From: Alistipes sp.
GTDB taxonomy: Bacteria; Bacteroidota; Bacteroidia; Bacteroidales; Rikenellaceae
Direction of reading: 5' to 3'
Assembly (NCBI GenBank): GCA_022511295.1
Contig: JAFLRT010000011.1
Span: 1-37,065 of the forward strand
Length of the DNA stretch: 37,065 bases
The position numbers were made by a program, and so were the translations under genes. Shown piece by piece: positions 24,816 through 37,065 of the stretch; position 1 is the first letter of the stretch, and the number at the start of each line of letters is the position of its first letter. The notes under the pieces were generated by a model. It was not told where the DNA came from. It searched no databases and worked only from the letters and a program-made list of their open reading frames with translations.

Positions 24816-26288
24816 ATGAAGATGAGACTTCTACACATAACGATGACCGTTGTTGCGGCGCTGCTGAGCGTTGCAACGGTTTCGGCTGACGAGAGTAAGG
24901 CTCTGCGCAAGGTCGCACGCGACACTACGGTATGCGGCGTGAGTGTCCGCGAGGCGCAGTTGGAACGCAAAGCGGGAACCATGAACGTAAATATGAACCT
25001 CGAGTTAGACGATTTCGCGCTTAAGGGCGAGCGTGTGGTCGTGTTCTCGCCGCTTATCGTCAATGATGCCGATACGGTTCGTATGTCGTCTGTCGGTTTG
25101 TATAGCCGCACCCGCTGGTTTCAGTACCTGCGTGCGGGCGAGAAACCTCTGGGCGGCGATGATGAGCAGTCGGTGCGCTATTCCAGGCGTCCGTCGGCGG
25201 TGTCGCTTTCCGGAAGCGTACCCTATGAGTCATGGATGAACGGTGCCGAACTTGTTCTCGAGCGTTGCGACTACGGCTGCTGCCGTATGCTTGTCGATGA
25301 GGATGCCGCTTCGCTCATCAATTATAAAGAGGTGTCGTATTCGCCCGTCTACCGCTATGTTTCGACCGAGGTCGAGCGTGTGAAGACGCGCGAACTTGCG
25401 GGGCGTGCCTATATCGACTTCCCCGTCAACCGCACGGAGATATATCCCGACTATCGCAAGAACCCCGTCGAGCTGGCGAAGATTATCGCCACCATAGATT
25501 CTGTCCGCAATGACAGCGATGTTACGGTAAAGCGCATAACAATCAAAGGTTACGCTTCGCCCGAAAGCCCCTACGATAACAACACCCGTCTGGCAAAGGG
25601 CCGAACCGCCACCCTCAAGCGGTATGTTCAGAACCTCTACCATTTCGATGACGATTTCATAGCAACGGATTACGAACCAGAGGACTGGGACGGTCTGCGT
25701 GCCTATGTCGTGCAGTCAGACCTCACGCATCGCGACGAGATTCTGGCCATTATCGACGACCCCACGCTCGAGCCTGATACCAAGGATTGGCGCATGAAAC
25801 TCAGATACCAAGACGATTATGCTATTCTGTTGCAGACGGTCTATCCGGCTCTCCGCCACTCGGATTACACTATCGAGTATGTTGTTCGCGGCTTCAGCGA
25901 CCCCGTCGAGATAGAGCGACTGCTGCATACCAAGCCTCAGAAGTTGTCGCTTGATGAGATGTTCCTGCTTGCGCGTACCTATGAGGAGGGTAGCGACAAA
26001 TATAACGAGGTGTTTGACATTGCGGTACGCATGTATCCCGACAATGCCGCAGCCAACATCAATGCCGCCAATGCGGCTATGGCGAGCGGCGATATGAAGT
26101 CGGCCGAGAAATATCTGTCCCGTGCCGGCGACTCGCCCGAGGCGGTGTATGCACGCGGTATGTTCAAAGGTTTGCATGGCGACTATAACGCCGCTCTCGA
26201 ACTGGTTAAGGAGGCCGCCGCAGGTCTCGAGGGTACCGAAGCTATGCAGACCAACCTCGAGGAGGTTCGGGGCTATGTATTTAACTGA
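24816..26288 (+). CDS. DUF3868 / OmpA-like domain protein with C-terminal TPR-like region
   Basis: 'YIDFPVNRTEIYPDYRKNPVELAKIIATIDSVRNDSDVTVKRITIKGYASPESPYDNNTRLAKGRTATLKRYV' is OmpA-like; C-terminal 'AANINAANAAMASGDMKSAEKYLSRAGDSPEAVYARGMFKGLHGDYNAAL' is TPR-like. Confidence 0.82.
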   Translation: MKMRLLHITMTVVAALLSVATVSADESKALRKVARDTTVCGVSVREAQLERKAGTMNVNMNLELDDFALKGERVVVFSPLIVNDADTVRMSSVGLYSRTRWFQYLRAGEKPLGGDDEQSVRYSRRPSAVSLSGSVPYESWMNGAELVLERCDYGCCRMLVDEDAASLINYKEVSYSPVYRYVSTEVERVKTRELAGRAYIDFPVNRTEIYPDYRKNPVELAKIIATIDSVRNDSDVTVKRITIKGYASPESPYDNNTRLAKGRTATLKRYVQNLYHFDDDFIATDYEPEDWDGLRAYVVQSDLTHRDEILAIIDDPTLEPDTKDWRMKLRYQDDYAILLQTVYPALRHSDYTIEYVVRGFSDPVEIERLLHTKPQKLSLDEMFLLARTYEEGSDKYNEVFDIAVRMYPDNAAANINAANAAMASGDMKSAEKYLSRAGDSPEAVYARGMFKGLHGDYNAALELVKEAAAGLEGTEAMQTNLEEVRGYVFN

Positions 26289-26343
26289 ATACGTAAAAGA
26301 AACAATATTAAATATAATAAATAATCATCTAAGCAACCATTTT

Positions 26344-28557
26344 ATGAAAAAACAATTTGTACTTGCATTGTTCGCATTTGCAGCAGTTTCTTTCGCAAGC
26401 TGTACGAATGATGCAGATTTGAACGGCGGCAAGACCCCGGGTCTTACCGAAGAGAAAGAGGGCGTAGGCTACATGTCGTTCTCGTTTAAGTCGGAAACGC
26501 GTGCAACAACAACTGACAAGGCTTTCTCCGACGGCGACCCTGAAGAGTATAAGCTTGCAGGGACACTGAACTCGCACGTTGCCATCTTCTTCGATGCGAA
26601 CGGTGGATATTTCGGCTACTCATACCTCACACCGAAAAATCAGATAACTGATGGCTCCGGCTCTCACAAGGGCGATGCCGACCACAATGGTAATGAGGAT
26701 TACAAAACCACCGAAAAACTCTACACCTATATCACTCGCGACCCTCGCGTGAGCAAGAACGGCCAGAACCCCACTTCGGTGCTGGTTCTTCTGAATGCAA
26801 GACCTGCCAACATCGAAGAGCTTCTCGAGAATTTGACCAATGGCTATAATCTTGAGAAGGTTAAGAACGAACTCGGCAGCTTCGACAAGTTCGGTATCTA
26901 CAAGGTCGATGACACTCATTCGTACTACACGATGACCAACGCTGTGTATCTTGACAATGAAGAAGGTATTAGTACGTTGAAGCTCGCTGTAGACGTTACG
27001 GGCAAGGTATGCGCCAGCCCCGAGCAGGCGGCTGCCAACCCTGTTACCATATTCGTTGAGCGCGTTGTTGCAAAACACTCGCTTACGTTCAGCCAGAACG
27101 GCGCTAAAGTTTCAGTAGGTCAGCTTAGCGGATTCATCACTCCCGGTGCCAACAGTGCGACCGACGACTACAACACCAAGTTCTCGTATGTAGCAGAGTT
27201 CAACAACGAAGATGATACGCCCAAACCCGTTGTATACACGTGGAAGGCTCACATCGTAGGTTGGGGCGCAAATGCTCTTGAGACGAATACGTTCCTCTAC
27301 AAGAGACTTCAGGGCACGGACAATGTCAATTTCAACCCCAACACGTCGACTGACTTCGACTCATGGTGGAATGTTCCCTATTTCCACCGTTCGTACTGGG
27401 CAATCGACCCGAACTACAATACCGGAGATAACTACTCGTGGGATGAGTCTTGTCATGGCTATCCTAACCAGTATCGTCCTACGTATGACGGCAGTGTATT
27501 GAGCTGGACTGACAAGTCGCTTTACGACCCTGAAGGCACAGAATATCAGGCGAAAAAATGGGCGCTCGACTATGTATCGTACAACAGCGTAAAGTCGACT
27601 GCCAACAACGTATACACACTTGAGAACACCTTCGCATACGAGCAGGCACTCAAGAACTACGCTCCGCTGCGTTACGGCACCCACGTGCTTGTCGCTGCAC
27701 AGCTTATATTCGACAATGTGGATAACGTAACGTATCAGAAAGGCTTCATCGACCACGTTGCTGACAAAGTATATGCAGACGGTTACTTCTGGTCGCCCGA
27801 AGCATATCTCCACTGGGCTTACAAGCAGGTTACGGAGTATGTTGCCAACGGTGTTGCCCACACGAAAGTCAAAGATGTATTCTCGACCACCAACGGTGTT
27901 ATAGCGTTTGCGGCTGCACACCCCAAAGCTCTGCATACCTTCTATGTAAAGGACGGTGAAGAGTACAAACCTCTGGTGTACAAGGAATCCGATGGCGACG
28001 GCACGGCTATATCCGATGTATTCGAGTTGGCAAAGGCTTACATCGAGAACGGTGACGGCAAGGTTGCTCTTACGCTTAAGGACAATGCCGAGGTATACTA
28101 CCGTGTTGTAGACGAAGAGGTTGAGCCTGAAGAGCCGGGTGATGAACCCGTTGAACCCACTGAGCCGGAGCCTGTATATGTGAAACTGACGAAACAGCAG
28201 ATCGCATCGCTCACGCAGACCGTGATGCCTGCCGCTGCCAAGTACTACAATAAGGGCAGCATGTACTATGCTGTTCCCGTTAAGCACTATTCAATCTACA
28301 AGGAAGACTTCAGCGGTCTGGGTTCGGCATACTATACGGGTGGCGAATCTCATGACACCGAGTACACCCTCGGCGACTTCGGCACCGTCCGCAACCACTG
28401 GTACAGCTTCAATATATCCGATATCAAGAAGCCCGGTACGCCCGTCGACGACCCCGAAGACCCGATTATCCCCAACGAACCCGAGGAGTACGACTATCTC
28501 GGCGTAGAGATTGTCGTCCTGCCCTGGCACGTTATCGAGCAGGATGTAGAACTGTAA
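26344..28557 (+). CDS. Mfa1-like major fimbrial subunit (lipoprotein)
   Basis: Start MKKQFVLALFAFAAVSFASCTND at 26344, in frame with ORF 26122..28557; lipobox FASC; 'SETRATTTD' maturation-like Arg; 'GTVRNHWYSFNISDIKKPGTP...' fimbrillin C-terminus. Confidence 0.85.
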   Translation: MKKQFVLALFAFAAVSFASCTNDADLNGGKTPGLTEEKEGVGYMSFSFKSETRATTTDKAFSDGDPEEYKLAGTLNSHVAIFFDANGGYFGYSYLTPKNQITDGSGSHKGDADHNGNEDYKTTEKLYTYITRDPRVSKNGQNPTSVLVLLNARPANIEELLENLTNGYNLEKVKNELGSFDKFGIYKVDDTHSYYTMTNAVYLDNEEGISTLKLAVDVTGKVCASPEQAAANPVTIFVERVVAKHSLTFSQNGAKVSVGQLSGFITPGANSATDDYNTKFSYVAEFNNEDDTPKPVVYTWKAHIVGWGANALETNTFLYKRLQGTDNVNFNPNTSTDFDSWWNVPYFHRSYWAIDPNYNTGDNYSWDESCHGYPNQYRPTYDGSVLSWTDKSLYDPEGTEYQAKKWALDYVSYNSVKSTANNVYTLENTFAYEQALKNYAPLRYGTHVLVAAQLIFDNVDNVTYQKGFIDHVADKVYADGYFWSPEAYLHWAYKQVTEYVANGVAHTKVKDVFSTTNGVIAFAAAHPKALHTFYVKDGEEYKPLVYKESDGDGTAISDVFELAKAYIENGDGKVALTLKDNAEVYYRVVDEEVEPEEPGDEPVEPTEPEPVYVKLTKQQIASLTQTVMPAAAKYYNKGSMYYAVPVKHYSIYKEDFSGLGSAYYTGGESHDTEYTLGDFGTVRNHWYSFNISDIKKPGTPVDDPEDPIIPNEPEEYDYLGVEIVVLPWHVIEQDVEL

Positions 28558-28569
28558 AGGATGATATAC

Positions 28570-28614
28570 GATTTTTACGGCGGCCTTCGCAGGCCGGAGG
28601 CCGCCGCGAAAATC
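28570..28614 (+). promoter_or_regulatory. Intercistronic hairpin between fimbrillin and anchor genes
   Basis: GATTTT-ta-CGGCGGCCT-tcgcaggccgg-AGGCCGCCG-cg-AAAATC. Confidence 0.65.
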
Positions 28615-28672
28615 ACAAAGCACAAACCGCCGGTAATTCCGGCAACACCAAACACTTAATGATAAATCTGTT

Positions 28673-29773
28673 ATGATTACAACATTCATATCTAAAACGC
28701 GAAAATTGCTCGTCGGTGTACTGACAGTTGCTGCCATAGGGTTCACCTCCTGCGAGAGATTCTTCGATTACGAGGGTGATTGCGAACCGCACTATTTCGT
28801 GAGCTTCGTCTATGATATGAATATACTCAATGCCGATGCATTTGCTTCGAGGGTATCGTCTGTCGACCTCTACGTCTTCGACGCAGTTACGGGCGATTTT
28901 GTGGACCACTTTGCAGAGGCTGACCGGGAACTGTTCAAGGATAAAAACTATATGATGCCGCTATCGGTACGTCCCGGTGAATATAAACTCGTGGCGTGGT
29001 GCGGACTGGACAACAACGAAGGCCGTTTCACCGTTCCCGACCCCGAGCAGATTCGCAATATCGAGGATTTGAAGGCCGTCATGGACCGCGAATACGAGTC
29101 GCGCACCGATGTGCCAGTAAGCAAAACGAATCTCGACTACAACACCAATGACGAGCCGTGCGCACTATATCACGGCACTATAGACGTCGCGTTGCCCGAC
29201 CATCAGGGTACCTATGTCTATCCGGTAAAACTGACTAAAGATACAAACAACATAATAGTTTCAATTTGGCACCGCTACGGCGAACTGGACAAGAGTAACT
29301 ACGAAATAAGACTCGTATACGCCGACGGCGAGAGCAATGCCACGCTGCATCACACCAATGCTCCCCTCAGCGATGAGAGCATACTCTACCTGCCTTGGGA
29401 TTATCGCGGCGGCAAACTCGATTTGGGCGAGGTCGTGCCGGGTCTGAGTACCGGCGAGGGCTTGAACGAAGCCTACGAGTATCCCGAAGGACGCTACATC
29501 ACGGCCGAAATATCCACCTCGCGTCTTATGGCCGACCATACGCCGCGTCTGGTGATATACGACAAGTCGGCTGATGCCGTAAGGCTCGACGTGCCTCTTA
29601 TCAAGCAGATTGAGGCGTACCGCAGTGCCAACTGGAACAAGATGCCTCTTCAGGAGTACCTCGACCGTCAGGACCAGTTCAACATAACCATCATACTCGA
29701 CTCCACGTGGGTGGGATTCGAGTTGGTTGTCAACGGCTGGCACACAATGAATCAAGGTGATACGGATTTGTAA
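28673..29773 (+). CDS. FimB/Mfa2-like fimbrial anchor subunit (lipoprotein)
   Basis: 'VAAIGFTSCERFFDYEGDCEPHYFVSFVYDMNILNADAF...VSSVDLYVFDAVTGDFV...YKLVAWCGLDN' is typical of FimB/Mfa2. Confidence 0.87.
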   Translation: MITTFISKTRKLLVGVLTVAAIGFTSCERFFDYEGDCEPHYFVSFVYDMNILNADAFASRVSSVDLYVFDAVTGDFVDHFAEADRELFKDKNYMMPLSVRPGEYKLVAWCGLDNNEGRFTVPDPEQIRNIEDLKAVMDREYESRTDVPVSKTNLDYNTNDEPCALYHGTIDVALPDHQGTYVYPVKLTKDTNNIIVSIWHRYGELDKSNYEIRLVYADGESNATLHHTNAPLSDESILYLPWDYRGGKLDLGEVVPGLSTGEGLNEAYEYPEGRYITAEISTSRLMADHTPRLVIYDKSADAVRLDVPLIKQIEAYRSANWNKMPLQEYLDRQDQFNITIILDSTWVGFELVVNGWHTMNQGDTDL

Positions 29774-29783
29774 AATATATATA

Positions 29784-32549
29784 ATGTTTAGACGGAAGAT
29801 TACATATATTGTTACAGTTGTACTGCTGTCAGCAGGCCTCTTTTCGGGGTGCGTGTACGACAATATCGACACTCCGCACGGCGACGAATATCCCGAAATC
29901 GCAGCCGACGCCTATGCTATGTCTATCGATTTCAACCTCGGAACATATCCAACGGAATACGATACGCGCAGCGGCGGTCTTTCGGCTCTGGGCGAAATCA
30001 CGCGAGTGAACTTCCACCCGAGCGACGACAGATACGACTACTGGGAAAGTTATATAGACCTGCATCAGGAGTTGCAGAACTACAGCGGCGACAAGTACAC
30101 GCTCTATGTGCTGATGTTCGACGAGAACAACAATTTCATGTACAACCCCTGCGGCAGAGACGCTTCCGGCAATGTCTCCAACCTGTTTCAAGTCTCCACC
30201 ACCGGCATCGTGTCGAACAACGAATATATGCGTTGGCGTGCAGTGTTTCAGGTTCCTGCGGAGGTGCGTGAATATATCCGCACCCACCATTTCAAGATAG
30301 CAGTTTTCGCCAACTGGCCTACGAACGATGTCGAGAATCTTGCTACCGGCACGATGGACCGTATTATGCCGGAGGAGTTCACCAACAACCTTCCGTGGGG
30401 CGGTCGCAATCCCAATATCAGCCCCAACGACCCCCGTTACGAGAGCGAAGGCCCTATATCCATCCGCAAACTGGCTCGAAGCGTCTACGACAAGACTTAT
30501 GGCGATAAGTTTTCCGAGGTATATTACTTCCTTACGGAGCACACGGAGCAAAAAGGTGCGAAGGGCGGCCGTATGGGTGCGTTTACCGACTGGGTGTTCA
30601 ACTACCACGAGAATCAGGAGAATGCCGTTCTCTTCACGCGCGGTTTTATCCCGGACAGGCTCGGCCACGACCGCCGCTACTATGAGAAACGTCTGGTCGC
30701 TACGGGCAAGGTGGACAAGAGCCGTTTGGTTACCCCGCGAGTGTTCCGCCGCAACTTCGACGACGAGTTCGCTTCCGATGACCGTATATTCATCTATCAG
30801 AACCTGTGGAATCTGTGGAATTTCGGCGGTCTGTACAATGCACGCATAAAAACCTCGTCCGATGCCGACTACCGTCAGGCTACGGCTGCAGATATTAATG
30901 ACTATCTCGTTAACGACGGCCACGAGTGGTCGCCGGCGAGTCTCGGAGACCCGGAGTTCGCATTGGAGCCCGATTCCAAAGGTCTGGACAAAATGTATTA
31001 CGGCCGTTCGGAATATGTGAGCGTGTGGGCATCCCGAAATCATCGCCGTGCGATGGAGGCTTTCGGCAAGGTCGACGACAAATGGCTTATAGACTACGTA
31101 CACGAGAACAACGGTGAGGTAGAGATTACTACCAATGCGACGAACAATGCTGATTTCATGTTCGCCTCGTTCTCTGATGTAGACGATATTCTCGACCATA
31201 CCAACACCCCTGTCATCGCAGGGGTGACGAACGGCTCCATGATATACACCGGCCCGAACAAAGCCAAACTCGGCAAGGATGACAACGGATACGTGTATCT
31301 TCACCTGCCTTCCGGCGGTTCGAAAACGAAGAACTGCCTCTCGTTCAAGGTTTTTGCCGATGCAGTACTCTATGTCAAGTCTACCGGTAACATTACGGTT
31401 GCGTCGGACAGTTACAGGTTCGAGGATAGCAACCTCCCCTCGAATTCCAACTATGAAGAGGGCGGATGGTTCCTCGATATTCCTTCCGACCCCTCCAACG
31501 TATGGATATATTCGAGTGACGGAACGGGCAAAATCTACGAGGTGGAGATGATACAGAAGAAGTATCTTTACGATTCCGACCGCCGTTCGCTGCTGCCGTC
31601 GAGTCATCAACTTGTACCCATGTACGGAATACAGGAGTTCGACCCGCTGGGCGACTACTGGATTCCGGGGCAGATATTCGACCTTTCGCATGACAACGGG
31701 TTCAACCGCCCGGGCTACAATCACAAGGCAATCTATCTGCTGCGTTCCGTCGCGCGTGTCGAGGTGCTTGTCTCCAAAGAGTTCAAGAATACATATCAGA
31801 ATAAATACCTCCCCCGTCTTATCATGCGTTCAATGAACCGTACTGCGCGCTGTATGCCGCTGGATGTCATAACGCCCACCGAAAAAATTTGGGACGAGGT
31901 GGACCAGGAGATTCTCAACATACGTGAGCACGGTCCGTTCTATACCACTGAGTTCGGTGACGATTTGGCTGCCGAGCAGGAGGAGTTCCGCAACCGTCTG
32001 GCGTGGTTCTACCTCAAGTGGGTGGATTTGTGGGACTGGACATGGAACGGTTGGCAGCCCACCACAATGAACACTACTCTGACTCCGCCCAGCGTGTTCA
32101 ATTCGAAAATCGACCGAGCGGACTACGTGCGAATGATAAAAGTCGACGATAATTACGATGGTTACGAGCGTTACGTATTGTACATGCCTGACAAGGCTAT
32201 CGATGATGCCGACGATGCCGGCGACCTCAGCGCCACGCCGAAGGTGCCGCACCTTGAGGTGCGTCTCAAGGGTGAATCCGTGAGCAACCTCGACGACAAC
32301 AACCATGAGCGTATCTATTTTATGGACTATGCGTCTACCGGCGGCCCTGTTACAAGCAAGGACAACAACGGCTACAAGACGTATGACAGTTACGAGAAGA
32401 ACACCGAAAACCTGAAGAAGCACTGGCCCGTCGTGCGCAATCACATATACCGTTTCCGCGTGCATCCTTCGGGCAATGAAAATGTGAGTGTAACACTGTA
32501 TGTGGCAGGTGCTGCAAGCCGCAGCGTAACGATACCTGACTTCGAATAA
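29784..32549 (+). CDS. Large fimbrial accessory subunit, DUF4906-like lipoprotein
   Basis: ATG 29784 MFRRKITYIVTVVLLSAGLFSGCVYDN; in-operon position; 'LPWGGRNPN', 'VARVEVLVSKEFKN', C-terminal 'HWPVVRNHIYRFRVHPSGNENVSVTLYV'. Confidence 0.7.
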   Translation: MFRRKITYIVTVVLLSAGLFSGCVYDNIDTPHGDEYPEIAADAYAMSIDFNLGTYPTEYDTRSGGLSALGEITRVNFHPSDDRYDYWESYIDLHQELQNYSGDKYTLYVLMFDENNNFMYNPCGRDASGNVSNLFQVSTTGIVSNNEYMRWRAVFQVPAEVREYIRTHHFKIAVFANWPTNDVENLATGTMDRIMPEEFTNNLPWGGRNPNISPNDPRYESEGPISIRKLARSVYDKTYGDKFSEVYYFLTEHTEQKGAKGGRMGAFTDWVFNYHENQENAVLFTRGFIPDRLGHDRRYYEKRLVATGKVDKSRLVTPRVFRRNFDDEFASDDRIFIYQNLWNLWNFGGLYNARIKTSSDADYRQATAADINDYLVNDGHEWSPASLGDPEFALEPDSKGLDKMYYGRSEYVSVWASRNHRRAMEAFGKVDDKWLIDYVHENNGEVEITTNATNNADFMFASFSDVDDILDHTNTPVIAGVTNGSMIYTGPNKAKLGKDDNGYVYLHLPSGGSKTKNCLSFKVFADAVLYVKSTGNITVASDSYRFEDSNLPSNSNYEEGGWFLDIPSDPSNVWIYSSDGTGKIYEVEMIQKKYLYDSDRRSLLPSSHQLVPMYGIQEFDPLGDYWIPGQIFDLSHDNGFNRPGYNHKAIYLLRSVARVEVLVSKEFKNTYQNKYLPRLIMRSMNRTARCMPLDVITPTEKIWDEVDQEILNIREHGPFYTTEFGDDLAAEQEEFRNRLAWFYLKWVDLWDWTWNGWQPTTMNTTLTPPSVFNSKIDRADYVRMIKVDDNYDGYERYVLYMPDKAIDDADDAGDLSATPKVPHLEVRLKGESVSNLDDNNHERIYFMDYASTGGPVTSKDNNGYKTYDSYEKNTENLKKHWPVVRNHIYRFRVHPSGNENVSVTLYVAGAASRSVTIPDFE

Positions 32550-32559
32550 CAGCAGGCAG

Positions 32560-35500
32560 ATGATTATGAAACAGATATTTAAGAAAATATTCGACCGCAA
32601 GGTCCAGTGTAGAGCCTTGACTGTGTTTGCAGTCGCATCGGCAATGCTTTTCGGAGCCTGCGCGCGCGATTTAGACGAGCAGGGTTCTGTGAACGGCGAC
32701 GTTGACGGTGTCTATTCCATCGTCTTACCCTGCACCGTGCCACAAGCATCCGACCGCACTCGCGCCCAGAGCGTCGACGACACAGGTATCGAGCGGCTGT
32801 GGATAGGTCTGTTCAAAATCACCGATACCGATGCCGTAAGCCGCGGCGACATCGACAGCAATGCCGCTCTTATCAAGAGTTGGGAGATGTCCAATGTCGC
32901 AGCCGATTCGAATCTTAAACTTATCATTGCCGACCCCGAATATCTTTTCGGCGACGATTTCAAGAATAACACCAACGTGAAATACTGCATGGTTGCAGTG
33001 GCTAACTTTCACAATATTCCGGGACACCGTGTAAAAGACGGCGTCGTGGAGGACGGTTATCTTTTCGATATGCTGCGTTCTATCGTCACGTGGGGCGATT
33101 TCTGCTCGCTTGCAGCCGACACTAAAGTTGCTTCCGAGCAGCGTTATCCGCTTATGCAGGGTCTTGTGGTCAGCGCCAATGACGCCGCTTCGCATATGAT
33201 TCTGCCTGAAACCTGCGGACTTCTTACCCCTGCTACTACGGGTAACAGCCAGCGAACCTTCACGGCTGCGGAACTGCTGAACTTTACGCATGGCCAGCGG
33301 CCGGCGCTCTATCTTCGCAGGCTCATCTCCCAAATCAATGTTGAAGTTACGCCCGATTTCAGTGGCAGCGATTATACGAGCGTCAAAGTCGACAATGTAC
33401 GGTATGCGGTTGTCAACTGCCCCAAAACCGTATATCTTCAGGAACGTGTCGTTCCGGCCGACGTCAGCGGACGCGACCAAGTTCCGGCGGATGTGTTCTC
33501 TGACCTCGAAGAGTACAAAACCTACTCGCCCAACTATGAGGACTGGAGCGCAGACGGTTTCTACAACACCATCGACGAGGCTGCATTTACAAAGGTGGAC
33601 GGAGTCTATACCAAAAAACCAGGTGAGACGAAAAACCATAAGTTCTCGTTCAACTACACCCGCTTCGAGAGCAAACATACGAGTGCTGAAGCGCTTTCGA
33701 CCTACACCGACCGCGAAGAGGTGAAAGACGGTCGTTTTACTGCGCTTTGTCCCGATGCCGGCGCGCTCTATAACAACTATGCACCCTATTTCGTTCTGAT
33801 GGCCGACCTCGAACTCGATAAGGGCGATGGCAAGCCGTTATACGTTACGGCCCGCTATGTTATCCACGAAGGCTACGCCAACAACTTCGACGGCAGCAGG
33901 CTCGACGACACCAATACGACTGTGGGAAATAATGCCAATTATTTGACACGCCTGCGCGATTTCTCGTGTATACGCAACACCAAGTATACCTATAATGTCA
34001 CAATTAAGGGCGTGAACAGCATCCTCGTGTCGGTTAAAATGGCCGACGGCAACGAACGCAACGGCGTTACGGGCGATGTGTCGACGGTTATCGGCAGCGT
34101 GGTCTTCGACGGTATAGGTCTGACCGAAGACAACAAACCGGAGTACGCTTTCACCCTCACCAATGCCGGGCGCCGTGCAGTGGCAGGCAAGTGGCTTGTC
34201 GTAGCGCCCTGGCGTGCCAAGAACGAAGATGGCGAATGGGAGTACAAACATGTCGAGTACGGCCATGAAGGTATCGTCGTACCCAAATTCTCAACGGTAC
34301 AGAGTTTCGGCGGCGATAACTTCTATCCTGCCGTTGACGTCGACGACAACGAACTCAATCAGTTCTGCAACTGGGTTACGTTCTATGACGAAGATGACAA
34401 TGAGATTGGCAATATTGTCGCTTTCGCTGCTGCTAATGATATAGAAGAAGAGGATGACGATATAGTGCATACCTATAAGTTGAGAGTCGAGCCATACAAA
34501 TGGAAAGGGACGTATCAATATGCTTTCGACGGCAATGAGCCCTCTCTCACCGGCAGCCGGATGCTTAACTCGTGGCACAACCCCGAAGAGGATACGCGTG
34601 CGCTGTGGCTCTGCACCGATTTCCGAACGTCCGCCAACGGAAGCACCTACGAAAATATACTCTCCGTAATACAGACGGTTGATGACGACCGTCCCGTTCT
34701 GCCCGCGCCGTCGGTGGAGGCGATTACGCAGCCCGTATATGTCTACGAGCGGGTCGAGGTGGGATTAGATGTAGCAGCCAGTGCGAATAACCGCGAAGGC
34801 GTGGACCACTATGTCGTCAACACGGAAGATGGCACCTTCGAAGTACCTTTTGCCGAAACAGGTTCGACATACCAGTTTCGCGGACCGCTTTTTGACATAT
34901 ATGGCACAACCAAAACAATAACTGTCACATCGCATCCTGCGAACCTTGCCGAATATGCCGTATCGGAACCTAATGAGTACCAGTATATGGTCTTTACACG
35001 ATTCCATACATGGCTGCTGGGCGCTCAAAAATATCCGGAGTTATCGACTACTGATAGTAGTTTTTCCGATTGGTGCGACCTGTCCAGTTCGCTGGCGGTA
35101 CGCGGTAACAACATTCGTCAGGTGATGAATGACAGCGGCAAGGAAAACGGTTATATCCAGATAGGTGCTGCCGCGAATATTGAGAACAAAACGAATATGT
35201 TCAGTATGTGGATACCCGAATCCGGCTCTGTACACGTGCGGTTCAGCAATACGGGCAACAATGGTCCGCGTTATGTGGCTCTCTATGCCGACGGCAAGGA
35301 GTATATATCGACCTATGCCTCGACAACAAATACCACCCAGATTGATGCCTATTTCAATATCGAACTTACCGAGAACAAACCCACGCAGATCTATATCTAT
35401 TCGCCCTCCTCGAACGGTGGCGGCTTGCGTTACTACCAGATTGACTATAGCGGCGAGTTCCGTTACGAGCGCACGCGCTGGACGTGGAATTTCTCCTCCA

Positions 35501-36447
35501 AAGAGTGGCGCGAGGTGATGCAAGACCTCATAGCCGCCGGTACCACTGGTAGCAACGACTATGATGTGACGTTTGATGACCTGCGTATAACTGCCGGCAC
35601 TGTAAGTATGCGTGCAGGTGTGGTAAATGACGTATATTATTATCAGACCGGTGGTGGAGGTTCTATGTCAAAACGAGTATTCTCGTTCAATGCCCTATCT
35701 TCCGGTACACTGAAAGTCACTACGACAAATACCGGCTCGACAGCAGATATGAGTCGTATGGTTTGTGTTCAGACGGGCAGCAATACCGCGAATAAGCAGG
35801 AGAAGGCCGGCGGTTACCCGTCGAATGCGCCGACTACGCTCTATTACAAAATAACGGTAACCGAGCCTGAAACCATCTACATATACTCGACAAACGGCTT
35901 GCGCTTCTACGAAATAGAGTTTATAAGCGACTTGGACGAAAATCCCGAGACTCCGATAGAACCTTCGGTGTGGAACTTCGCGCAGGAGCCGTGGAAATCG
36001 AATCAGGCAATGAAAGACCTTATCGCAAAAGAAAGTAATAGTAATGAAGACAGAGGTGATGCCAATTTCGATTTGACACTCGACGGTCTGCGTGTACATG
36101 CCGGTGGTGCAGTTATGCGTGCAAATACTGGCTATTTCCAGCCTATGGCTCCTGGAGGTAATAAGGATTTGTGCAGCTTCTCGTTTACCGCAACGACTTC
36201 TGGTACGGTTACAGTGGAGGCATCGAATACCGGCGGTTCAGTGGGTACAGGCCGCAACATTGCCGTACAGACCGGTGACGATGCATCAAATAAGCAGTCG
36301 CAGTTTGCAGGTACGCCAAGCAACGAAAGCCATACCGTTGCTACATTCCATGTGGATGTGTCCGCACCAACGCCAATATACATCTACACGGAAGTTGGAG
36401 CTTTGCGTATCTACCGCATAGAATACAGCGGCGGCATACAAAAGTAA
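32560..36447 (+). CDS. Very large fimbrial accessory/tip-like lipoprotein with C-terminal tandem modules
   Basis: 1295 aa; lipobox 'AMLFGACARD'; 'LRRLISQINVEVTPDFSGSDYTSVKVDNVRYAVVNCPKTVYLQE' and 'DFSCIRNTKYTYNVTIKGVNSI' are fimbrillin-like; three repeats after ~35040. Confidence 0.72.
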   Translation: MIMKQIFKKIFDRKVQCRALTVFAVASAMLFGACARDLDEQGSVNGDVDGVYSIVLPCTVPQASDRTRAQSVDDTGIERLWIGLFKITDTDAVSRGDIDSNAALIKSWEMSNVAADSNLKLIIADPEYLFGDDFKNNTNVKYCMVAVANFHNIPGHRVKDGVVEDGYLFDMLRSIVTWGDFCSLAADTKVASEQRYPLMQGLVVSANDAASHMILPETCGLLTPATTGNSQRTFTAAELLNFTHGQRPALYLRRLISQINVEVTPDFSGSDYTSVKVDNVRYAVVNCPKTVYLQERVVPADVSGRDQVPADVFSDLEEYKTYSPNYEDWSADGFYNTIDEAAFTKVDGVYTKKPGETKNHKFSFNYTRFESKHTSAEALSTYTDREEVKDGRFTALCPDAGALYNNYAPYFVLMADLELDKGDGKPLYVTARYVIHEGYANNFDGSRLDDTNTTVGNNANYLTRLRDFSCIRNTKYTYNVTIKGVNSILVSVKMADGNERNGVTGDVSTVIGSVVFDGIGLTEDNKPEYAFTLTNAGRRAVAGKWLVVAPWRAKNEDGEWEYKHVEYGHEGIVVPKFSTVQSFGGDNFYPAVDVDDNELNQFCNWVTFYDEDDNEIGNIVAFAAANDIEEEDDDIVHTYKLRVEPYKWKGTYQYAFDGNEPSLTGSRMLNSWHNPEEDTRALWLCTDFRTSANGSTYENILSVIQTVDDDRPVLPAPSVEAITQPVYVYERVEVGLDVAASANNREGVDHYVVNTEDGTFEVPFAETGSTYQFRGPLFDIYGTTKTITVTSHPANLAEYAVSEPNEYQYMVFTRFHTWLLGAQKYPELSTTDSSFSDWCDLSSSLAVRGNNIRQVMNDSGKENGYIQIGAAANIENKTNMFSMWIPESGSVHVRFSNTGNNGPRYVALYADGKEYISTYASTTNTTQIDAYFNIELTENKPTQIYIYSPSSNGGGLRYYQIDYSGEFRYERTRWTWNFSSKEWREVMQDLIAAGTTGSNDYDVTFDDLRITAGTVSMRAGVVNDVYYYQTGGGGSMSKRVFSFNALSSGTLKVTTTNTGSTADMSRMVCVQTGSNTANKQEKAGGYPSNAPTTLYYKITVTEPETIYIYSTNGLRFYEIEFISDLDENPETPIEPSVWNFAQEPWKSNQAMKDLIAKESNSNEDRGDANFDLTLDGLRVHAGGAVMRANTGYFQPMAPGGNKDLCSFSFTATTSGTVTVEASNTGGSVGTGRNIAVQTGDDASNKQSQFAGTPSNESHTVATFHVDVSAPTPIYIYTEVGALRIYRIEYSGGIQK

Positions 36448-36566: not shown

Positions 36567-36593
36567 TCTAATAATTCATCAATGTTAAGCACA

Positions 36594-36745
36594 AAAAAGA
36601 GCGTAGTGCCAATCCTCACGTCCCGAGGGTTCCTACGCCCTACTTATCAATAGGATTACACTACGCATACGAACGCAGCATACCCATTGATAAGTTAAGA
36701 AAGTCTTGTTGTCTATGTAGGAATTTCGGGACGTGAGGATTAATA
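36594..36745. other. Structured intergenic element (candidate ncRNA or non-autonomous mobile element)
   Basis: IR AATCCTCACGTCCCGA (36611-36626) / TCGGGACGTGAGGATT (36726-36741), TTCCTAC (36630-36636) / GTAGGAA (36717-36723), ACTTATCAAT (36642-36651) / ATTGATAAGT (36686-36695); competing pair GCGTAGTG (36601-36608) / CACTACGC (36659-36666). Confidence 0.6.
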
Positions 36746-36761
36746 TGTAAAAAGCGTACAG

Positions 36762-36803
36762 GAGCAGGTTGCAAGGAGATATCCTGACAACCTGCTCTTT
36801 TTC
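36762..36803 (+). terminator. Rho-independent terminator
   Basis: GAGCAGGTTG-caaggagatatcctga-CAACCTGCTC followed by TTTTT. Confidence 0.75.
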
Positions 36804-36806
36804 GGT

Positions 36807-37065
36807 CTAAAACTTTTCGGCCAGCGCAGCCGCCTGAGCGCAGCCGTCGGTCCCTGCGATATCGCCCTCATTGAATACCCCCGGGACGCACACCGCACCG
36901 ACAAAATCCCATTTAAGCAGGTCGAACGAGCGTTTCAGCGGCATCGTAACGCCGTCCATAACCGTTGCGTCGTGTTCCTCGCAGCAGGTGATGATGCCGC
37001 ACTTCTTGCCTGCGACATCCTTGCCTCCCACGACCAACGAGAACACGCGGTCGATAACGCCCTTA
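36807..37065 (-). CDS. NADPH-dependent FMN reductase / flavodoxin-family protein (5' end outside window)
   Basis: Minus-strand frame open to the window edge: '...KGVIDRVFSLVVGGKDVAGKKCGIITCCEEHDATVMDGVTMPLKRSFDLLKWDFVGAVCVPGVFNEGDIAG'. Confidence 0.7.
   Translation of the reverse strand, partial: KGVIDRVFSLVVGGKDVAGKKCGIITCCEEHDATVMDGVTMPLKRSFDLLKWDFVGAVCVPGVFNEGDIAGTDGCAQAAALAEKF

Follow-up and report, generated by a model that had tools for sequence, protein, structure and literature searches.

A probable two-state transcription attenuator in mRNA leaders of Bacteroidia, with a probably orphaned copy in an Alistipes genome

The window, that is, the whole stretch of DNA analysed here (37,065 nucleotides of an Alistipes sp. 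genome; contig JAFLRT010000011.1, assembly GCA_022511295.1), contains a structured element that sits between two convergent genes (Table 1). A fimbrial cluster (Fimbrillin_C, Mfa2) is followed by two large ORFs of 930 and 1295 aa without Pfam matches (24816-36447), the second of which runs toward the element; a minus-strand gene lies on the other side. The region is non-coding by position and ORF length, in agreement with the original prediction, which had been made from the sequence of the window.

The repeats on which that prediction was built are all present. These are a 16-bp perfect inverted repeat (P1), its inward continuation TTCCTAC/GTAGGAA (P1b), an inner stem ACTTATCAAT/ATTGATAAGT (36642-36651/36686-36695), and a second set in which GCGTAGTG..AATCC (36601-36615) faces GGATTACACTACGC (36653-36666); the two pairings do exclude each other. 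Both strands fold far beyond dinucleotide shuffles, the minus strand better (z -9.9) than the plus strand (z -8.4). It is the minus strand that is active; the second fold, which ends in TCTTTTTTG, is thus part of the same RNA, as a terminator-like hairpin. From 5' to 3', this RNA consists of the P1 5' strand, the P1b 5' strand, a bubble, the P2/P3 hairpin, the P1b 3' strand, the P1 3' strand, the GC-rich segment S4, and a U-run. Two terminators had been proposed, and the minus-strand one thus belongs to the conserved RNA; the plus-strand hairpin with its T-run exists as described and lies outside the conserved element. Read on the minus strand, this hairpin precedes the element and may be a 5' leader hairpin.

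Table 1. Features of the element and its neighbours in the window.
Feature	Position	Strand or type	Basis or remark
Conserved RNA element, full length (model R3 positions 1-156)	36589..36743	-	matched end to end by R1/R2/R3
P1 5' strand, AATCCTCACGTCCCGA	36726..36741	-	P1 covariation, 98 homologs
P1 3' strand, TCGGGACGTGAGGATT	36611..36626	-	P1 covariation, 98 homologs
P1b 5' strand, TTCCTAC	36717..36723	-	covariation, 98 homologs
P1b 3' strand, GTAGGAA; doubles as loop of hairpin H	36630..36636	-	covariation; alignments for H
Hairpin H, AGGG-CGTAGGAA-CCCT; excludes (or kisses) P1b	36626..36641	-	sequence; kept in relatives
P2/P3 apical hairpin (ACTTATCAAT/ATTGATAAGT and inner stem)	36642..36695	-	repeats, folding
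Switch strand S2, TGCGTAGTGTAATCC; P3 3' side or terminator T 5' side	36653..36667	-	swap test z -22.9 for T
Terminator 3' strand S4, GGATTGGCACTACGC	36601..36615	-	folding
U-run, TCTTTTTTG, directly 3' of S4	36592..36600	-	sequence
Hairpin GAGCAGGTTG/CAACCTGCTC and T-run	36762..36803	plus-strand terminator	not conserved in homologs
Gene, 3' end; upstream of the element on the RNA strand	36807..37064	-	no Pfam or NCBIfam match
Large convergent ORF, 1295 aa, adjoining the fimbrial cluster	32560..36447	+	

Within its own genome, the element has no close copy other than itself. By BLASTN, its last 56 nt are 96% identical in another Alistipes MAG (G164:C48, CAMWJM010000048.1), whose contig terminates inside the element and whose homology to the window stops at 36589, right after the U-run; a 77% identical copy occurs in another genus of the same taxonomic family (G224:C103). 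The surroundings of both copies are unrelated to the window, and lipoprotein genes lie behind both. A covariance model built from the window and G224 sequences (R1) retrieved diverged full-length relatives with the same architecture. Its successor R2, trained on five sequences, matched 47 of 268 genomes of the taxonomic family. A third model, R3, was built from 58 sequences, including the window element, which, as a training member, scores 119.6 bits (E 4.5e-23). With strict filters, in a run that scored only 8 candidates per genome, R3 found matches in 90 of 343 Bacteroidales genomes, and with lax filters 16 of 18 genomes were positive; weaker matches appeared in other orders of Bacteroidia. 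Genomes carry from 1 to 25 copies (25 in a genome of 1.3 Mb), with 5 in the window's own genome. The window element is therefore a member of a large multi-copy RNA family of about 150 nt, which is found throughout Bacteroidia before hundreds of unrelated genes, with Alistipes and Bacteroides-like gut bacteria among the carriers.

No Rfam 15 family covers the element at gathering thresholds, either in the window or at about 60 member loci, so an RNA known to Rfam, one of the outcomes foreseen for this check, was not what emerged; similarly, a permissive Rfam search with five members gave nothing overlapping the element. A cobalamin riboswitch (RF00174; L135:3032-3161) was noted near, and outside, one family member. 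Among phages and plasmids, BLASTN with the window element or with Bacteroides-type members returned chance matches only. Exact patterns of the element had 0 matches in IMG/VR, and in GTDB genomes the G164 contig was their sole match. Weak BLASTN matches (L042, L045, L047, L048) and AT-rich covariance model matches (L058, L059, L061, L062) were read and dismissed as chance. The openly accessible main texts of the literature yielded no description of the family. Draft contigs often end inside copies of the element or no more than about 260 nt away from them (the end of G164:C48, the starts of contigs C108 and C127 and the window end of C13 in genome G000), which suggests that assemblies are broken by hairpins or repeats.

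Comparison of the members supports two folds. Fold A is a long rod made of P1, P1b, P2, and P3. Fold B consists of a 5' hairpin, PA, in which the 5' end pairs with the bubble; the small hairpin H, in which four bases on each side of the P1b 3' strand pair and that strand becomes the loop; and an intrinsic terminator, T, in which the 3' side of P3 pairs with S4 and which ends at the U-run. PA, H, and T are encoded in none of the models, and all of them exclude the rod. For P1/P1b, 94.3% of cells are paired across 98 sequences, vs 63.8% after shuffling, with 511 double-change cells against 149 when shuffled and at most 89 when slid; the alignment was fitted to P1/P1b. In this alignment, P1 and P1b covary at every pair, and P1b has 99.9% of its cells paired and double changes at all 7 pairs. 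On structure-blind MAFFT alignments, 98.7% (A10) and 91.1% (A9) of the PA/H/T cells are paired, compared with at most 44% (A10) and 68% (A9) in slid controls.

In a swap test, segments were exchanged between members: with 129 deduplicated members, z was -39 for P1, -27 for P1b, -23 for T, -20 for PA, and -6 for H, and among members outside the R3 training set it was -12 for PA and -16 for T, with a weak value of -1.2 for H. A reversed-segment control also produced signal for P1 (z -10) and P1b (z -22), and the test is therefore clean only for PA, T, and H, where reversing the 3' segment showed that composition accounts for little of the signal. Folds forced to contain T include PA in 96% of the members and H in 96%, with T ending at the U-run. 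A U-run (at least 4 T near the 3' end) is present in 150/158 members. The free MFE structure is the rod in 90% of the members. Its advantage over the terminator state averages 13 kcal/mol across the family, so the terminator has to prevail through folding kinetics or with assistance.

Two further features, a promoter box and a co-directional gene, are not encoded in any model. Of 97 members, 72 have the box TAnnTTTG in the 100 nt before the element (6.9 in shuffles), with clusters at -17 and around -35 to -57; out of sample, 49 of 60 have it in the preceding 130 nt (shuffled mean 4.9). A co-directional gene follows in 125/149 members (84%), its start codon at a median of 52 nt past the element, and in 50 of 55 out-of-sample members (91%); 18 of the 149 copies (about 12%), the window copy included, have none. 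Such copies could suggest a stand-alone RNA. Together with the promoter, the U-run, and the presence of several copies per genome, they would fit trans-acting small RNAs that each carry a promoter and a terminator, in which the T helix is a plain sRNA terminator. However, most members lie directly and at short distance before a co-directional gene, the terminator strand has been kept mutually exclusive with P3, a constraint that a constitutive terminator would not require, and there is no conserved unpaired seed; we consider stand-alone sRNAs unlikely. The 6S-like ncRNA put forward in the original prediction is likewise disfavoured by the location in mRNA leaders, by the presence of up to 25 copies per genome, and by the lack of a 6S match in Rfam.

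The downstream proteins often begin with signal-peptide-like sequences (94/125) and lipoboxes (45/125), as judged by simple patterns. The genes include C5 and EcoRI-type DNA methyltransferases, HsdR_N, a PLD-helicase, a ZorA-like protein, HTH regulators, and SusC/RagA-like receptors. They share no family: no Pfam family occurs in more than 2 of 66 proteins, and no metabolite can thus be guessed. A classical metabolite riboswitch with the rod as its aptamer would account for the terminator/antiterminator architecture and for the conserved internal-loop bases; however, it is highly improbable, as these 66 proteins give no coherent target pathway and, apart from stems and short loops, nothing in the RNA forms a compact, invariant aptamer core. 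Five members (L152, L207, L140, L085, L167) stand directly before anti-phage or restriction-type genes (ZorA-like, C5 and EcoRI-type methyltransferases, HsdR_N, PLD and ResIII helicase), and in other orders of the class the genes behind L230, L233, L236, L238, and L239 have SusC/RagA-like N-termini. The motif GGCACTATTGCACAAAAC or a variant lies between terminator and start codon in several short-distance members (L002, L054, G000:C15:811-827). The sequence GTTTTGTGCAATAGTGCC, common to the flanks of L002 and L054, was tested as a part of the element and rejected. It is absent from the window; the window's genome has one copy, with 2 mismatches, beside another family member.

It could also be supposed that the palindrome works as DNA, in a mobile or recombining element (a MITE, as originally suggested, an integron-like site, or another hairpin site) that travels with accessory genes as it spreads. 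In favour are the nearly identical stretch that two species share in different surroundings, the multi-copy occurrence, the accessory genes, some of them anti-phage, that accompany the copies, and the frequent contig breaks near them. However, no target-site duplication is seen at the element ends, as had been reported before, and a genome holds one close copy while its others are very diverged yet structurally constrained. In addition, the polarity of promoter and U-run and the orientation of the genes favour RNA, and pairing in L054 depends on G-U in the RNA strand, which is C-A on the opposite one. In integron attC, core sites (RYYYAAC/GTTRRRY) pair at the outer ends, whereas the 5' end of the family pairs internally (PA) and not with the 3' end; an attC identity was rejected. 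An element acting as DNA is thus very unlikely.

In long-leader members, a conserved CCTATG is found mostly about 18-29 nt past the promoter box and about 45-70 nt upstream of the element. After deduplication, 26 of 27 cases have a stop in its reading frame after no more than four sense codons, vs 39% in shuffles; in the other two frames of the long leaders, closure reaches 7% and 52%. Carriers include L084, L096, L102, L114-L119, L126, L128, L129, L148, L159, L203, L204, and L208, among others, as well as two copies of the window's own genome (C108 and C127). The resulting mini-ORFs are, for example, ATG-TAA, ATG-AAA-TAG, and ATG-AAA-CAT-TAG. Ribosome initiation or termination on this predicted mini-ORF is one candidate input to the RNA.

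The family has exclusive conserved folds, including a terminator with its U-run, and lies between promoter and gene. The RNA strand, the promoter, both folds, the U-run, and the co-directional gene all find support in sequence comparison, and we consider it likely that the family is a cis-acting bistable transcription attenuator in mRNA leaders of Bacteroidia. The switching attenuator, one of the original guesses, is thus upheld at the level of the family. From an ordinary Bacteroidetes promoter (TAnnTTTG) a short way upstream, RNA polymerase would make about 150 nt of RNA, which would take one of the two folds as it emerges. In fold B, the 5' end and the bubble segment would pair as PA, H would close round the P1b 3' strand, and the P3 3' strand would pair with the last GC-rich segment; with the U's that follow, this hairpin would stop transcription in vivo. 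In fold A, the P1b strands, presumably nucleated by a contact between the H loop and the PA loop, would join with P1 into the long rod. The switch strand would then be held by P3, no terminator could form, and polymerase would read into the gene about 50 nt downstream; we infer this direction of control.

The copy in the window has retained P1, P1b, P2/P3, H, T, and the U-run, and its T duplex (-22.8 kcal/mol) is close to the family mean (-20.9). Its location differs from that of the family: no TAnnTTTG is recognisable upstream and no gene follows, as the RNA runs into the 3' end of the 1295-aa ORF and so has no co-directional target. In this copy, PA ranks with the family's weakest, and the rod exceeds the terminator fold in stability by about 40 kcal/mol. 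Because it has no recognisable promoter, PA, or downstream gene, the window copy is probably an orphan that no longer regulates any gene; it could nevertheless terminate transcription from the minus-strand gene that lies upstream.

More generally, and more tentatively, the family may represent an undescribed, Bacteroidia-wide class of bistable leader RNA, portable among unrelated accessory genes (surface lipoproteins, anti-phage systems, regulators) and responsive to the general state of the cell. Long-leader members might use the minimal start-stop ORF as sensor, with ribosome initiation, termination, or recycling setting read-through. If true, it would be among the most abundant cis-regulatory RNAs of gut Bacteroidota, absent from Rfam, and would place genes without a common function, those for surface lipoproteins and phage defence among them, under a single RNA logic. 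This reading predicts a promoter, two folds, and RNA 3' ends at the U-run; for one subtype, it also predicts translation of ORFs that are one to five codons long.

Several structured RNAs are known from Bacteroidetes, among them Flavo-1 and other motifs (PMC2864571); those held in Rfam matched none of the approximately 60 member loci. The paralogous sRNAs FopS/GibS of Bacteroides resemble the family as a multi-copy RNA family with Bacteroidetes promoters. However, FopS is a trans-acting RNA with a single-stranded 5' stretch and one terminator hairpin, and its own family is said to be deposited in Rfam (PMC11697453), which gave no match to members of the present family. The RNA described here is base-paired throughout. 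Identity with FopS was set aside. The candidate RNA HMP2_4205 is a palindromic Bacteroidetes sequence of 132 bp near TPR genes with a predicted terminator (PMC8040213), and it may be a fragment of one family subgroup. Leader-peptide attenuators of the trp/his type similarly have an ORF in the leader, as does the long-leader subtype, but the ORF of the family has only 0-4 sense codons after the start and no regulatory codon run, and its distance to the switch is about 45-60 nt. Transcription attenuators and terminator-type riboswitches share with the family the leader position, the exclusive terminator and antiterminator folds, and the U-run before the gene. Unlike them, the family has a long rod as antiterminator, a terminator 5' strand within the apical hairpin, two folds that are pseudoknot-related, no common target pathway and, in one subtype, a minimal ORF.
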